Origin: a virus
Strand: one strand, 5' to 3'
DNA: 39,537 bases
Virus record (IMG/VR): IMGVR_UViG_3300028840_001687
Span: 1 to 39,537 of that record
Shown piece by piece: positions 18,308 to 39,537 of the stretch. Position 1 is the stretch's first letter. Each line of letters opens with the position of its first letter. The translations under genes were made by a program, and so were the position numbers. The notes beneath the pieces were generated by a model. It was given only the letters and a program-made list of their open reading frames with translations, ran no database searches and was not told the DNA's origin.

Positions 18308-18380
18308 CGTACTTTATCTCCTGTCTAGGAAAGTTCCAAAGATTCAGTGGTGGTAGTTTCAATAGAGGCCATTCAATCAT
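18204..18380 (-). CDS. Possible overlapping small protein starting MIEWPLLKLPPLNLW (58 aa)
   Basis: ATG at 18380 overlaps the exonuclease stop as TAATG, the same coupling used elsewhere in this operon; TAG at 18204. The N-terminus with LPPLNLWN recalls short phage peptides with an LPPINLWN motif. The second half overlaps the 66-aa gene in another frame and is compositionally ordinary. It might be functional only in its first 20-25 residues. Confidence 0.42.
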   Translation of the reverse strand: MIEWPLLKLPPLNLWNFPRQEIKYDGRFEPRRKDRVYADTVRKCSELHLELIHRRSRG

Positions 18381-19177
18381 TATACCGTAAGTACATCAAC
18401 ACGCTTCTTGAACTGATCATCAGCATATCTCTCTCGGGGATATGATCCACAATCCTTGCAGTGATATTGCTTATAACCCATCACTTTGGTTCTCTTATAG
18501 GATTTGAATGACAAGTTTGTGCTGCCGCAATTAGGGCAAACTTTATCCTCACCACGTGGTAGCCATAGAGCTTGATTAGGATGACCCTTAATCCAAGGCA
18601 GTAGCTTGAGATATAAATCCTCTAGCAAGACAGTGTCCTGGATATTATAAGTCTTCATATTTTCCCAGGACTGGATGAGTTCAGGGGTGAGTGTATCCCG
18701 GGGGATGTTGAGAGCGGTCATGCAATCCTCCCACAAAGAGAACCCCTTATGGCTCACCTTCCCGCCAATACCAAGCTGCTGTGCTACGAAGTCCAGCTTA
18801 TTACTCATGAATCTAAAATTACTCTTCACTACATTAAGAAGATCAATTTCATGTACAGGAGATGCAGGAGTCATTCCATTCAAAACAAACTCTTTATTCA
18901 GAATAGGTACATCGAACTTCTTTCCGTTGTAATGTACCACTGCATCTGCCTCATCCATCAAGCTCCAGATGGACTGGAGCATATCTTTTTTAGTGTCGTG
19001 GAAAAGACTCTTAAAAATAATATCATCTTCCCCATGCCACTTAGCAGCATAGCAAAGCGTGAACCCAGGTTTCACAATCTGGTGAATACCTACATTCTGT
19101 TTGTGTAAGCCCCAGACGTAGGCAACAGCGGGTGCTGTTTCAATATCCAGATGCAAAACCTTAAGGTTGTTAGTCAT
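18380..19177 (-). CDS. DnaQ/RNase H-like 3'-5' exonuclease with C-terminal zinc ribbon (265 aa)
   Basis: DEDD-type exonuclease. ExoI is LHLDIETAP (residues 9-17, Asp and Glu), ExoII is VVHYNGKKFDVPIL near residue 80 (NGxxFD), and ExoIII is the YNIQDTVLLEDLY helix near residue 185 (Asp). The C-terminus adds a zinc ribbon, CPNCGS...CKDCGS (residues about 222-248), probably for DNA or RNA binding. Such YprB-like exonucleases occur in podoviruses in addition to the polymerase proofreading domain. The start overlaps the preceding stop by eight bases. Confidence 0.85.
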   Translation of the reverse strand: MTNNLKVLHLDIETAPAVAYVWGLHKQNVGIHQIVKPGFTLCYAAKWHGEDDIIFKSLFHDTKKDMLQSIWSLMDEADAVVHYNGKKFDVPILNKEFVLNGMTPASPVHEIDLLNVVKSNFRFMSNKLDFVAQQLGIGGKVSHKGFSLWEDCMTALNIPRDTLTPELIQSWENMKTYNIQDTVLLEDLYLKLLPWIKGHPNQALWLPRGEDKVCPNCGSTNLSFKSYKRTKVMGYKQYHCKDCGSYPRERYADDQFKKRVDVLTV

Positions 19178-29310: not shown

Positions 29311-29780
29311 TCAATGTGTCTCCGCCCAGCTCTCACCCACTGAATAGTCAGAGTCAAGGTCTACGTTAAGGTTCAATACCCGGCCAGCTTTCCGGATACT
29401 CTCAATTGCCAGGCTACCATATACTTTGGTGTGATGCTCAGCTACATCTGCCTGGGCTTCATCATGAATATCCCCAACTTTCATAGCATCAATGTTATAC
29501 TTCCTTACCCAGTAGTCAAGCAACACCATACTAACCTTCATGACGATAGCACCAGATGATTGGAAGTTCGAGTTAAGAAGAGCACTTTCCTTGCGTATGA
29601 AGATTGGCCGGCCATCTAATCCAGTGATGTACCCCTTATTACTCCACTCCCTCTTGAGCATGCTCTTAACCTTATTCAATGGGTTGTCATCTGACCAGAA
29701 ATTGTCAAAGATCTCTTGAGCTTTCTTCGAAGAAATGTCCAGGGTAGTAGATAGCTTAGGTGGATAGGCGCCGTACATTA
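29311..29780 (-). CDS. Family A DNA polymerase, exon 2 (motif B end to C-terminus)
   Basis: Second exon of the split polymerase gene. After splicing it continues the exon 1 frame as ...KYAL-MYGAYPPKLS. It holds the fingers/palm C-terminal half: YITGLDGRPIFIRKESALLNSNFQSSGA (like the T7 WIKGLDGRKVHVR...LNTLLQSAGA segment) and motif C VGDIHDEAQADV with the catalytic His-Asp-Glu. It ends SVGESWAETH, close to the T7 C-terminus MGPNWAICH. An in-frame ATG at the exon start is coincidental and part of YALMYGA. Confidence 0.93.
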
Positions 29781-30490
29781 CACTATGTTCAAGACAGTTC
29801 GTTAAGCTGTCTCCGGAATGAATTCCAGCTGCATGTTGCCATGCAGGTCAGACTATATCATCACCCTCTGTTGAGGGGCCAGGCGCTTCCACTCACTTGA
29901 GTGTACTCCCTTTCGGGATAGTCGTTGCACCTTCTAAGTATTGAATGGCAGATTGTAGGTTATCTGTGCTATCCTGCATCAAGCCTAAAGCTCGGTTGCA
30001 GTTATGGCAGAGGAGTCCTCTTACCTTTTTGGTATCGTGGCAGTGATCAACCACAAGCTTCACGGTCTCTCTGGTTTTGTGTTTGGCTAGGGAGAATCCT
30101 TCACTTCCACATACTGCACACTTATGGTCCTGCTTCTTGAGGAGTTCCTCATAGTCAGCGAGAGTGATACCATATGTTCTCATTAGATAACCGTCATCGT
30201 ATGCAGCTGTCTTACACTCTTCGCTACAATACATATGACTTGGTGCATTAGGTTGAAACACCTCACCGCACCTTTTACATCCCTTCTCTTTGAAGAACCC
30301 TTGGGGATACTTCTCAGGAGAAGCTGTCATCTCAGATTGTTTCTTATTTGCATCTCTATACATACACACCTCTTGAATAAAGAAGGTATTGTACCATAGA
30401 TAAATGATCAATTCAATACTTAGCTTGGCTCAGGATTATCTACTAGAGACTTCCCCTGAGTTCACCTGGTTTAAACTGCGCTAGCTATTA
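29781..30490 (-). ncRNA. Group I self-splicing intron in the DNA polymerase gene (710 nt)
   Basis: The 5' splice site follows ...UGCGU: exon UGCGU pairs with the internal guide GCGCA about 10 bases into the intron, giving a P1 helix ending in the obligatory U-G pair. Core elements are a Q-like AAUCCUGAGCCAAGC (30437-30423), R-like GCAACGACUAUC (29928-29917) and S-like GAUAUAGUC (29859-29851), which forms P7 with GACUA. CUCAGG (30460-30455) pairs with CCUGAG (30434-30429). A P9 hairpin CUGCAUG-GCAA-CAUGCAG lies at 29846-29829. The intron ends in G at 29781. Splicing gives ...GCG UUA AUG UAC GGC..., and exon lengths 931 + 470 make exactly 467 codons. Confidence 0.93.
29893..30363 (-). CDS. Intron-encoded HNH homing endonuclease, Endonuclease VII type (156 aa)
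   Basis: ATG at 30363 with AAGAGGTG upstream; the frame further upstream has no site. N-terminal zinc knuckle CKRCGEVFQ...HMYCSEECK. C-terminal Endo VII-like core: CAVCGSEGF, then LVVDHCHDTKKVRGLLCHNCNRALGLMQDS, with the catalytic DH and the final Asn. It should cut intronless polymerase alleles and spread the intron. The last 13 codons overlap the P7/P8 region of the intron core, so gene and ribozyme share sequence. Confidence 0.93.
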   Translation of the reverse strand: MYRDANKKQSEMTASPEKYPQGFFKEKGCKRCGEVFQPNAPSHMYCSEECKTAAYDDGYLMRTYGITLADYEELLKKQDHKCAVCGSEGFSLAKHKTRETVKLVVDHCHDTKKVRGLLCHNCNRALGLMQDSTDNLQSAIQYLEGATTIPKGSTLK

Positions 30491-31421
30491 ACGCATATTT
30501 TCCTGTCTTCGCCTTATTTCGTAGTGTGTTACCCTCTGGATCTTTTTTGGTTAGGCCTTCAGATTCCTTCTGAAAGAAGAGGGTACGGACATTCTGCCAA
30601 TGCATATCACCATTCAACAACTCATCAGCATAGTCCTGACTGAACGGGTAGACAGCATGTGCTTCCATCCTCCCCTCAAGACCGCTGGCATCATGACCAA
30701 CTAGCTTTCGTCCAGGTCTGTGAGTGAAGAGGCTACGGCATTCCTTTCCAAAGAAAACCTTGGGGTCATTCTTAGGCACATTCACCACACCACGATGCCT
30801 CATCCTTGCTGTTGGTGTACCAAGAACATTTGCCCTGGCAGAGATGGTGCCATCCTCCCTCACTTGTGATAGCCATCCACGGATCGAGGAGAGCCTCATG
30901 CTCACTTTCAAGTAGAGTGCCAGGTCAGGGCCTATACCAGCTGAAAGACTGTCGTATGAGCTTTCAGTGAGCTTTGGAGATGTAGGGATAGGTTCACCGT
31001 TGATATACTCTATCTTCCCCCTCTCATTCTTCTTGTAGTTCCACTCATCTGGCTCCCATCCCAGCTTGAATAACTGTTCCTTTAATTGCTTATCACTATC
31101 TAGGTTAGGCTCCTCAAATCTTACTCGGGTAAATGGTCCGCCAACAAGATGTGCATCCTCTTCTCCCATCCACTTGATAACATAGGAGTTGTGTGCCCCG
31201 CTCTTAAGGAATGGCCTGTTGATAGGGGTCTTATATGGCTGAACAACATTAAGGCTTAGGTTAGGGATGATAAGATCATGTAGCCTCTTGCTCTCACTCT
31301 CCAAGGAGTTGATGTACTCCTCTGCAAGATCCTTATCAAACTGCCATCCCCTATCCTCTTGCCGGCTGATAATATCCTGGGCATACTGCTCAAGTAGTAG
31401 AGCTCTGTATATGTTTACCAT
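30491..31421 (-). CDS. Family A DNA polymerase, exon 1 (palm/thumb to motif B)
   Basis: Start at ATG 31421 (MVNIYRALLLEQYAQDIISRQ), matching the point where the T7 polymerase domain begins after its exonuclease domain; GAGGAAG lies upstream. Motif A GHDASGLEGRMEAHAV (catalytic Asp) is near residue 245, and motif B RNKAKTGKYAL... is cut by the intron after the first base of the Leu codon. Read without splicing, the frame stops five codons after KYALIA. The 466-aa spliced product lacks the 3'-5' exonuclease domain, which is encoded by a separate gene at 32524-33030. Confidence 0.93.
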
Positions 31422-31422
31422 T

Positions 31423-31749
31423 TCATTTAAACTTCCTCGTCTTATGATATAGGATTTCAATATCCTCTATAGTGAGGGAGGATTTCTTTTGGTTGAAGCT
31501 AAGGCAACACGCTACTACATTACCTTTGACATATCCCTTTGCTGCATCAACTCTGTCAATCGTTCTATCTGTGCCTCTAGCTACAGCATCAAACGTTGGC
31601 TCTGTCAGCTGAACACCAGTGAAGTAACATACCTTAGCTGCTAGTAAATTTCTTACTGAGGTGAGGGATAAATTGAACTCAAGGTCTCTCTTCTTCGCAT
31701 TCTTTAGGAGATGCAGAAACTTTCTTGCAACCTGTTCGTCAGCAGGCAC
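31423..31749 (-). CDS. HNH-like protein between exonuclease and polymerase genes (about 108 aa)
   Basis: Probable start GTG at 31749 (a TTG at 31776 would add nine residues). Core: VCYFTGVQLT, then RTIDRVDAAKGYVKGNVVACCLSFNQKKS. The CYxTG...DRxDxxKGYxxGNV pattern is shared by a widespread group of phage HNH-related proteins that lack the usual zinc Cys pairs. The N-terminus is a basic helix (FLHLLKNAKKRDLEF). It may be a free-standing mobile endonuclease whose insertion separated the polymerase domains. Its stop lies one base before the polymerase ATG. Confidence 0.66.
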   Translation of the reverse strand: MPADEQVARKFLHLLKNAKKRDLEFNLSLTSVRNLLAAKVCYFTGVQLTEPTFDAVARGTDRTIDRVDAAKGYVKGNVVACCLSFNQKKSSLTIEDIEILYHKTRKFK

Positions 31750-32523: not shown

Positions 32524-33030
32524 CTACTTATCGTATCTCTGTACATCCGTCATCAGATCCTTGAAGATGAGGTGTTGTATCTCCACATCCTCTTGGCATC
32601 TGTATAACATTTCAGGAGAAAACTTAGACCAGTCTTCATGCTCAGGCTTGCTTCTCCCGAACCTCATACCATATGCCTCAACCGAATGAGGAGCTGGCTG
32701 TCCTTTCCAACCATATGGAACCTTCTGGTCTGGCCTCAACATCTTGGAAAGGATGAGGGTATCAATCACCCTGGGGATTGGGAGATCGACACCCAGCACC
32801 TTCTTAATTAACCAGCGATCATAAGCAATTCCATTATGCATAGTCCAAGTGTCATGCTGCAGGGCTAGGGATAAATCCTTGAGCGTCTTATCACCCTCAT
32901 CCAGTCTGTCAGGATTATCATAATACCTTACTATCTTACCAGTGCTGGTATTCTTGGTAACACAGCACCAGATTCTATCAGCTATAGGTCTTAGGTTATT
33001 AGCTTCAAAGTCAGCTATCAATATTGCCAT
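32524..33030 (-). CDS. DNA polymerase 3'-5' exonuclease domain as a separate protein (168 aa)
   Basis: Corresponds to the N-terminal proofreading domain of T7 gp5. ExoI ILIADFEANNL (residues 3-13, DxE), ExoII TMHNGIAYDRWLI near residue 64, DTLILSKMLRPDQK near 88, HSVEAYGMRFG near 115 and ExoIII YRCQEDVEIQHLI near 143 are intact, so it should be active. It ends where the exonuclease domain of T7 polymerase ends. The polymerase domain follows about 1.1 kb downstream after four intervening ORFs. The start overlaps the peptidase gene by 13 bases. Confidence 0.92.
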   Translation of the reverse strand: MAILIADFEANNLRPIADRIWCCVTKNTSTGKIVRYYDNPDRLDEGDKTLKDLSLALQHDTWTMHNGIAYDRWLIKKVLGVDLPIPRVIDTLILSKMLRPDQKVPYGWKGQPAPHSVEAYGMRFGRSKPEHEDWSKFSPEMLYRCQEDVEIQHLIFKDLMTDVQRYDK

Positions 33031-37803: not shown

Positions 37804-38199
37804 TCAAAAAGTTATAGAGTATTCAAGAGACACCACACTGTCAACCTTCCAGCCACTCTCAAGCTCAACAGGTGGAATATAACCGAGCCTCACCCCTTTG
37901 TATTGGATGATAGCCCGAGCGGCCGGAACAACACTGTCACGGTAGCCGTCCACGACACCGAAATGCACCCCTGCAAACAGATCTTTCCTGTTGTCAGTGG
38001 TTAGGAGGAAACCAGCATGCTTGCTTATGGTGTATAGAGAGTTGTGATAGGCCCCAATAGAAGCCCTCCAGTGGTCGCTGATGGTACATTCGACAGCAAC
38101 CCCGGGATTGGATTCATTGTACTTCTCCAGCTCTCCCAGACCGTCATGGGTTAGGTGTAGGGAAGCAATCGACAGAGTGAGCGCAATAGAGAGGCACAT
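37804..38199 (-). CDS. Exported outer-membrane beta-barrel-like protein (131 aa)
   Basis: AGGAG lies upstream of the ATG. A hydrophobic leader (MCLSIALTLSIASL) resembles a signal peptide, although it lacks the usual N-terminal Lys/Arg. The body shows alternating short beta strands (ASIGAYHNSLYTISKHAGF, FAGVHFGVVDGY, RAIIQYKGVRLGYIPP) and ends VVSLEYSITF, with hydrophobic residues at positions -1, -3, -5, -7 and -9 and a terminal Phe: the beta-barrel recognition signal used by BAM. It is reminiscent of small PagP-like or phage-encoded outer-membrane proteins. A likely role is altering the cell surface early in infection, for example superinfection exclusion. Confidence 0.66.
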   Translation of the reverse strand: MCLSIALTLSIASLHLTHDGLGELEKYNESNPGVAVECTISDHWRASIGAYHNSLYTISKHAGFLLTTDNRKDLFAGVHFGVVDGYRDSVVPAARAIIQYKGVRLGYIPPVELESGWKVDSVVSLEYSITF

Positions 38200-38419: not shown

Positions 38420-38456
38420 TGGAATTCTCCTCTTCTCGATCAATCCAGTTAATCAT
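38406..38456 (-). CDS. Possible 16-residue leader peptide behind a duplicated start region
   Basis: ATG at 38456 lies in the repeated ribosome-site/start segment; the frame reads MINWIDREEENSNACK and stops inside the next gene. It carries the GAGGAG of that gene, so it may couple translation or be a remnant of a truncated gene. Confidence 0.3.
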   Translation of the reverse strand: MINWIDREEENSNACK

Positions 38457-38470
38457 CGTCTTGTCTCCCC
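38451..38470 (-). repeat. Direct repeat, copy 1 of a 20-bp translation-initiation segment
   Basis: Identical 20 bases occur here and at 38710-38729 (minus strand GGGGAGACAAGACG then ATGATT): ribosome site, spacer and first two codons. The two copies flank the 75-aa gene at 38488-38715. Confidence 0.85.
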
Positions 38471-38487: not shown

Positions 38488-38715
38488 TTATGCGTACAAA
38501 GTCCGCATCAGTTCAGCCACCATACTCTGTACCTTGGCATGGAAGATGTAATCGTTTCGGTATCTATCAACGGCTACGTCCATCGCTTCTTGTACTTCCC
38601 CGGGGTCCCAAGACATGCCGCCGCGCTTATCTGCCTCATCAAAAAAGTGCAGTTGTCTGGTAACGGTTCTGGTAAGCAACTCAATCGTATGTTTTTTTGT
38701 GCGTTTATCAATCAT
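38488..38715 (-). CDS. Hypothetical protein (75 aa)
   Basis: Starts from the second copy of the repeated GGGGAG...ATGATT segment. Helical and charged; contains MSWDPGEVQEAMDVAVDRYRND. Unknown. Confidence 0.64.
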   Translation of the reverse strand: MIDKRTKKHTIELLTRTVTRQLHFFDEADKRGGMSWDPGEVQEAMDVAVDRYRNDYIFHAKVQSMVAELMRTLYA

Positions 38716-38729
38716 CGTCTTGTCTCCCC
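38710..38729 (-). repeat. Direct repeat, copy 2 of a 20-bp translation-initiation segment
   Basis: Same 20 bases as 38451-38470. This copy provides the ribosome site and the ATGATT start of the 75-aa gene. Confidence 0.85.
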
Positions 38730-38921: not shown

Positions 38922-38963
38922 AAGTATCTCTCAAAAATTAACCAGCAACAGTTACCTCAGTCG

Positions 38964-39191
38964 TTAGATTGCCGCTGCTTTCTTTTCTGTGTCATGGCGC
39001 ATGCAAGCCCATTCCATCACATTGAAGAATGCGGGCTTGATGCCAAGAGAAAGCAAGGATGTATATGCGTCAACGAAATTCCCGGCCTCGATGTCATCGT
39101 TCACTTTCCGCAGTTTCTGCTCAATCTCTGCGGCACCAGTCGTGAGCACGCCGCGCAGTACGTTCTCGAATTGTTCGCTTGTTACATTCAT
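38964..39191 (-). CDS. Hypothetical helical protein directly downstream of an attC site (75 aa)
   Basis: Starts 20-odd bases after the core GTTAGAT of the attC at 39211-39277. Its TAA is part of ATCTAAC (38969-38963), which is complementary to that GTTAGAT, as expected of the R'' box in an integron cassette's own attC. The rest of an attC hairpin is not seen, so the downstream end may be truncated. The protein is acidic and helical (SEQFENVLRGVLTTGAAEIEQ). Unknown. Confidence 0.66.
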   Translation of the reverse strand: MNVTSEQFENVLRGVLTTGAAEIEQKLRKVNDDIEAGNFVDAYTSLLSLGIKPAFFNVMEWACMRHDTEKKAAAI

Positions 39192-39210
39192 TTAGTGTCT
39201 CCAATGCCTT

Positions 39211-39277
39211 GAATCTAACAAGGCAAATCAAGTGCGGACGCCGCTACACGGCTCCGCTTATTTGCAACGTTATATTC
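39211..39277 (-). other. Integron attC recombination site
   Basis: Imperfect palindrome. Outer R boxes GAATATAAC (39277-39269, minus) and GTTAGATTC (39219-39211); an unpaired three-base spacer; L boxes GCAAAT/ATTTGC (pairing 39223-39228 with 39260-39265) extended by AAG/CTT, CGGA/TCCG and GCCG/CGGC; a five-base terminal loop (39244-39248); and extrahelical bases (39229, 39233-39234, 39239) all on one arm. This is the full attC architecture, and the 3' core GTTAGAT matches GTTRRRY exactly. The site begins directly after the stop of the 72-aa gene. Confidence 0.9.
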
Positions 39278-39524
39278 TCAGCGAACAGGAAATATCTCAT
39301 CGAATTTCTCTTGCACACGATCAAGGTCGCTGGTGGAGTATTTCTTTTCTGAGTCGAGGAACTCCTGAATATCTACTTCGGCACCAGACGCAACAAGCTC
39401 GGAAAAGCAATCAGGGCAGATGTAGCCGTATACTGGCGAGTACCGATCACACATGATGGCATCACAGCCATTTCGAGAACATGCTAAAACACCCATGTCT
39501 TTCTCCTATTAAAAATGAATATAA
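39219..39524 (-). mobile_element. Complete integron gene cassette (306 bp)
   Basis: Between two G|TT core points (G at 39525 and G at 39219 on the minus strand) lies one gene, at 39278-39496, and its attC. The cassette begins TTATATTC and its R'' box is GAATATAAC, a perfect nine-base complement of GTTATATTC, while it differs by one base from the next cassette's GTTAGATTC. That self-match is diagnostic of an independently mobilised, circularisable cassette. There is no integrase gene in the window. Confidence 0.87.
39278..39496 (-). CDS. Cassette-borne small zinc-binding protein (72 aa)
   Basis: AGGAGA precedes the ATG. The N-terminus MGVLACSRNGCDAIMCDRY, then VYGYICPDCFSELV, holds CxxxxC, C and CxxC motifs typical of a zinc knuckle; the C-terminus is acidic. 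I recall this MGVLxCSRxGCxxxMCDRYS...YICxxCF protein as recurring in proteobacterial phages and mobile elements. The stop lies one base before the attC. Function unknown. Confidence 0.8.
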   Translation of the reverse strand: MGVLACSRNGCDAIMCDRYSPVYGYICPDCFSELVASGAEVDIQEFLDSEKKYSTSDLDRVQEKFDEIFPVR

Positions 39525-39537
39525 CAAGGCATTTCAC
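39517..39537 (-). other. 3' end of a second attC site, cut by the window edge
   Basis: On the minus strand ...GCCTTGTTATATTC; the core GTTATAT and the adjacent TGCCTT are the same as the 3' end of the attC at 39211, apart from one base in the core. It is the trailing end of an attC whose cassette lies beyond the window, so at least two cassettes are arrayed here. Confidence 0.72.

Follow-up and report, generated by a model that had tools for sequence, protein, structure and literature searches.

Does the right-hand end of this phage genome hold an integron gene cassette array and, if so, were its cassettes taken from a host integron or do they belong to a pool carried by phages? The window is the whole stretch of DNA analysed here, namely the complete IMG/VR record IMGVR_UViG_3300028840_001687 of 39,537 bases, which is classed as linear. 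Nothing can therefore be read past position 39537, and the right end of the window is the end of the contig. A virion protein, a primase/helicase, a DNA polymerase, an exonuclease and an endonuclease VII are all found on the contig, which identifies it as a phage genome. From the ORF list and PHROG matches, virion-type genes occupy the plus strand up to ~12 kb. They are followed by a long minus-strand block encoding ribonucleotide reductase, exonuclease, primase/helicase, polynucleotide kinase, RNA ligase and a split family-A DNA polymerase, with numerous small ORFs toward the right end. The array lies at the extreme right, upstream of these small minus-strand genes (Table 1).

Elsewhere in the genome, the DNA polymerase gene (30471-31460 / 29311-29778) is split by a group I intron at 29829-30500 on the minus strand (Rfam RF00028, 37.4 bits, E 8.7e-8, below the gathering score). 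An endonuclease VII-type ORF lies within the intron, and the 3′ end of the intron shares 81-96% identity with phages from unrelated genera. No match in an Rfam search of the window reached the gathering score. Two separate ORFs, at 18380-19177 and 32524-33030 (-), both match DNA polymerase exonuclease families (phrog_403 and phrog_17), which suggests a duplicated or split exonuclease. Within the early region, an ORF at 37804-38199 (-) matches the C-terminal part of the PagP-like phage family phrog_3600 (E 2.2e-12). An exact 20-base direct repeat, AATCATCGTCTTGTCTCCCC, is found at 38451-38470 and 38710-38729 around the starts of two adjacent early ORFs, and is perhaps their shared leader. Close relatives of the window were absent from the collections searched, leaving no empty site for comparison: when the right-hand 24.5 kb was compared with 50,697 phage records by megablast, only the 110-bp end of the group I intron matched, the primase/helicase led to two distant loci only, and the peptidase near the array led to none.

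Sites were scored with a covariance model (R1) built from 15 attC sites taken from two prophages published as carrying integrons, Shewanella M16-3 and V. anguillarum p16; both sides vary in 10 of its 11 inner-stem pairs. A string-matching attC finder was dropped in favour of this model because it missed known sites. As an independent check, R1 recovered four sites in Pseudoalteromonas phage H101/PH101, scoring 35-39 bits, and three in Tetrasphaera phage TJE1, scoring 25.6, 19.3 and 16.4 bits. It failed to find the published Polaribacter P12002L sites, so the model is biased to gammaproteobacterial-type attC. No match of at least 20 bits was obtained over 0.84 Mb of other viral DNA, where the top score was 17.7, and no attC was found in 368 kb of viral DNA picked by an exact 15-base attC motif.

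The preliminary description of this DNA had proposed an attC array at the head of the phage early region, with the end of a second attC at the window edge, and both proposals were borne out by the covariance model. The complete site, attC1, scored 29.0 bits (E 3.5e-5) with the whole model covered. Its core boxes, ATCTAAC (39213) and GTTATAT (39269), conform to RYYYAAC/GTTRRRY, with R′ departing from GTTRRRY at one position. R1 polarity and the fold agree on an imperfect L″/L′ hairpin with extra-helical bases on one side. The bottom strand folds into a hairpin of -14.4 kcal/mol (z about -4), a stability reached by 0 of 200 shuffles. Of the second site, attC2, the contig end leaves only the 5′ half, which scored 12.5 bits over R1 positions 1-19 of 53 (E 0.72 alone). 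The attC1 region found no match among plasmids. Hairpins are common between phage genes, and it might be objected that attC1 is an ordinary terminator or a chance palindrome between two early genes. This is extremely unlikely, as the score of attC1 reflects polarity-specific features, no terminator was called, a second copy lies 306 bp away and the boxes are paired and self-matching (see below). attC1 is a genuine integron-type attC, above chance.

Table 1. Features at the right-hand end of the window, with positions in the 39,537-base record.
Feature	Position	Strand	Evidence
Small early-type phage genes	36716..38921	-	Downstream of the array and transcribed the same way; ORF list, PHROG, codon usage
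Core site GTTAGATT of the left junction (G^TTRRRY type), at the 5′ end of cassette A	38963..38970	+	8-base match to attC1 R″
Cassette A, complete, 306 bp, ends with attC1	38964..39269	+	Bounded by core sites (38963, 39269); R box matches own 5′ end
ORF A, 75 aa, antiparallel to attC1	38964..39191	-	Stop codon in core site; GGAG upstream of ATG
attC1, complete	39213..39275	+	R″ ATCTAAC, L″ GCAAATCAAG with extra bases, L′ CTTATTTGC, R′ GTTATAT
Cassette B, incomplete, attC severed by contig end	39270..39537	+	9-base self-match of core site and R″
ORF B, 72 aa, antiparallel to attC	39278..39496	-	PHROG 22735, E 9.8e-16; cysteines C6, C11, C16, C27, C30
attC2, 5′ half only	39519..39537	+	R″ ATATAAC then AAGGCATTTCAC; ends at contig end

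Outside the window, attC-like matches of 17-19 bits were seen in L074, G009 and G010, the one in L074 being just 27 bases long. A Robiginitomaculum MAG (G002, contig C87; L063, L067, L069) has an attC array (33.7, 28.8 and 22.6 bits), which lies not on the phage contig of the same MAG but on another contig of 7.3 kb. An exact scan of viral contigs for TAACAAGGCNNNTCAAGNNNGGAC gave no match, and a scan for TAACAAGGCATTTCA returned 46 stretches, 0 of which contained an attC by R1, leaving them as chance matches.

The ends of an attC site are nearly palindromic, with the result that a cassette reads alike in both directions and the asymmetry of the inner stem alone tells its polarity. On the plus strand R1 gave attC1 its full score, as against 2.9 bits on the minus strand. 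With the polarity set as plus, the complete 306-bp cassette is cassette A, which holds ORF A. The preliminary description was right that a complete cassette of this length exists, but the boundaries that it gave, 39219-39524, fit the opposite polarity, and the cassette of ORF B, which it took as the complete one, begins at 39270 and is cut off by the contig end. It had also missed the third core site, at 38963.

A closer inspection of the boxes supports these boundaries. The 5′ end of cassette A matches the reverse complement of the attC1 R″ over 8 bases, and the array therefore starts at 38963/38964. In cassette B, GTTATATTC at 39269 matches exactly, over 9 bases, the reverse complement of the R″ ending at 39525, whereas a cross pair of core site and neighbouring R″ matches over 4 bases; the nine-base self-match and mismatched neighbour first described for this cassette were thus reproduced. 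In both cassettes, then, R″ is complementary to the cassette's own 5′ end. In a 10-position test of this kind, 3.7% of background ORFs reach 8 matches and 0.6% reach 9. Because each R″ box matches its own 5′ end, it is probable that cassettes A and B were joined by an integron integrase, and that what is seen here is an integron-type array of at least two cassettes, lacking an integrase and inserted into the phage at the promoter-side end of its minus-strand early region. No attC stem is present at the left boundary, where R boxes only were found (4.7 bits on either strand), as expected if a simple G^TTRRRY site at 38963 received the first cassette. A search for intI gave no match to TIGR02249 or PF00589 in the contig; the contig, which is a fragment, thus has no intI and does not hold a complete integron.

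The cargo of the array was examined with codon usage trained on the large genes of the window phage itself. ORF A scored 0.24 vs -0.12 for its plus-strand rival (38994-39212), and ORF B scored 0.03 vs -0.22 for its own; ribosome-binding sites also favour the two minus-strand ORFs. No relatives of ORF A were found in phages, viral contigs, Pfam or PHROGs. ORF B matches PHROG 22735, a small cysteine-rich phage protein, in agreement with the earlier suggestion that it is of a type seen in phages. Its family was found in 11 phage records (Aeromonas, Vibrio and Pseudoalteromonas phages) and at 43 viral loci (alignments A1 and A4), with the five cysteines conserved or nearly so (alignment A4). No member was found in plasmids, nor in 397 other Pseudomonadota genomes, although attC sites are present in 61 of the genomes in that sample. 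When 84,980 species genomes were scanned by motif, 1 match was returned, on a contig with terminase, portal, head and tail genes, and hence a phage within a MAG. To judge from these sequence comparisons, ORF B belongs to a phage-only family in every collection searched. Other members of PHROG 22735 differ from ORF B in lying in ordinary phage gene clusters without attC boxes. The AlphaFold model of ORF B is of moderate confidence (pLDDT 74.8), and no significant match to the PDB was obtained by sequence or by fold. PADLOC, whose library covers defence and not counter-defence proteins, gave no match in the window, and an anti-defence role for the window cassettes is no more than a possibility.

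Both cassettes have their ORF antiparallel to their own attC, and so depart from the usual, if not absolute, parallel arrangement. The longest-ORF test on its own places cassette B as antiparallel and gives a tie for cassette A, which codon usage resolves as antiparallel. For comparison, R1 was run over 398 Pseudomonadota genomes, 61 of them with attC, and 30 loci were rescanned, taking the longest ORF between consecutive sites. Scored in this way, 38 bacterial cassettes were parallel, 4 antiparallel and 1 unclear (n=43). The two prophage arrays, scored likewise, contained 8 parallel cassettes, 0 antiparallel and 2 unclear. The contrast in polarity between phage and bacterial arrays, drawn from two phage arrays plus the mixed array of H101, gave a Fisher P of 0.0025 per cassette and 0.01 per array, the array count being approximate.

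The second of these phage arrays is on IMGVR_UViG_3300022542_000228, a contig of 28.3 kb whose phage genes include those for a tape measure and for Gam-like, Erf-like, DnaD-like and terminase proteins. Here an attC-like array is internal, between the Erf-like and DnaD-like genes, with its sites on the minus strand and its ORFs, by codon usage, on the plus strand. As in the window, it is an early-region array antiparallel to its ORFs, and it includes a relative of ORF B (L022) that is 60% identical over the best segment and occupies a cassette of its own, whose boxes match each other over 10 bases. Of 52 family members tested, paired boxes around the ORF were found in just these two, the window (9 bases) and L022 (10 bases), as against a background of 1 in 1,359 at no fewer than 9 bases. 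Unlike the window, the contig is a different phage by its core genes, with about ten cassettes, many of whose sites are degenerate, and with a cassette for a Lar-like restriction-alleviation protein (L071, 3788-4021 (+), PHROG 599, E 2.6e-10). Nine of 20 ORFs in the array have a box match of at least 8/10 where 3.7% would be expected (P ~1e-8, indicative since the ORFs were hand-chosen). The sites are weak singly, at 17.7, 15.6, 12.9 and 8.9 bits, and shuffled sequences fold as well as several of the hairpins, as would be seen in an old array. No integrase was found on this contig either.

The array of the window closes a metagenomic contig, and chimeras are most likely at such ends; the assembler could have joined phage and integron DNA near 38963 or near the contig end. 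We regard this as very improbable. ORF B is a phage gene, the codon-usage scores of ORFs A and B fall within the range of the adjacent early genes, which they also match in strand and spacing, and G+C has no step across the last kilobases of the window. Moreover, the analogous array in the second phage is internal, flanked by Erf-like and DnaD-like/terminase genes.

A more serious alternative is that a stretch of a chromosomal integron was taken up by illegitimate recombination, bringing in ordinary host cassettes that are reversed by chance and immobile in the phage. Vibrio anguillarum prophages carry pieces of host integron (PMC9892861), attC1 resembles Shewanella-type arrays (TAACAAGGC...), and the 4 antiparallel cassettes among the 43 scored demonstrate that bacterial cassettes can be reversed as well. 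Like sedentary chromosomal integrons (Shewanella, Vibrio), the window has small cassettes, self-matching R boxes and the attC sequence and fold; it differs from them in that the contig lacks intI and, it appears, attI, the ORFs are reversed and the setting is a phage early region. Set against capture from a host are the ORF B family, which is phage-only in all collections searched, and the reversal of both window cassettes, which recurs in a second, unrelated phage. Host capture is therefore unlikely, and the earlier idea that phages take early genes from host integrons by this route is not favoured, ORF B being phage-only and both ORFs antiparallel, which is rare in bacteria.

Phages are not normally built from attC cassettes, as the preliminary description stated, and this stands as a rule. 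However, attC arrays in both temperate and virulent phages have already been published (Qi et al. 2023, PMC9892861), and arrays of this kind are thus already known. Published phage clusters of attC without an integron integrase (CALINs), such as H101/PH101 and TJE1 (PMC9892861), both of which R1 finds, share with the window their attC-bounded small ORFs, a virulent-type phage and the lack of an integrase. They differ in polarity and cargo, as the window has both cassettes antiparallel and a phage-only gene in cassette B. TJE1, a virulent phage, has the normal parallel cassette order. The cassettes of H101 have been described as all oriented one way (PMC9892861), but the array was found here to be mixed, with four attC on the plus strand and annotated CDS on the minus strand, plus an unannotated plus-strand ORF (L016, 25919-27987). 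What is new here is the reversed polarity, the phage-only cargo and a cassette gene common to an unrelated phage.

Whether the cassettes still move is a further question. They may be true attC cassettes that have lost their mobility and are retained because the genes are useful, a reading that we consider possible if somewhat doubtful. It would account for a contig without an integrase, for the failure to find a relative with a different cassette set and for the single departure from the consensus in the attC1 R′. Yet attC1 retains its stem, extra-helical bases and both core sites. In published work, 5 of 6 phage attC sites tested recombined with IntI1, and phage sites recombined about as well as attCaadA7 (PMC9892861).

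In the scheme that we consider most likely, an integron integrase supplied by the host would act in trans on the single-stranded attC, with the bottom strand folded and cut during phage replication. A phage early promoter beyond the contig end would transcribe the cassettes by read-through, as an operon, and the cargo would be small phage early or host-takeover genes. Bottom-strand selectivity sets the orientation of a cassette for expression from Pc (PMC8946536), and without a promoter of their own, reversed cassettes would thus not be expressed in an ordinary integron. With their ORFs against the attC polarity, insertion of the window cassettes at a normal bacterial attI would leave the ORFs antisense to Pc. 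They therefore look suited to a phage-borne pool, and not like cassettes taken from the expressed array of a host.

Taken together, the reversed polarity and the phage-native cargo favour a pool of cassettes borne by phages over an origin in a host integron, and suggest that cassettes are a form in which phages store and exchange small early genes. In its fullest form, the idea is that phages maintain an attC pool of their own, made up of reversed phage-native early or counter-defence genes that are silent in bacterial integrons but active in the phage operon, and that host integrases move between unrelated phages. We put this forward as speculative and, as yet, rather unlikely. If a distinct, reversed phage pool does exist, phage attC arrays need polarity scoring before they are called host-derived, and integron integrases, beyond shuffling bacterial genes, would also exchange phage early genes site-specifically across unrelated phages, counter-defence genes included. 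This would provide a mechanism for the mosaicism of phage early regions, in which small genes swap without homology, and would tie phage evolution to a host enzyme.
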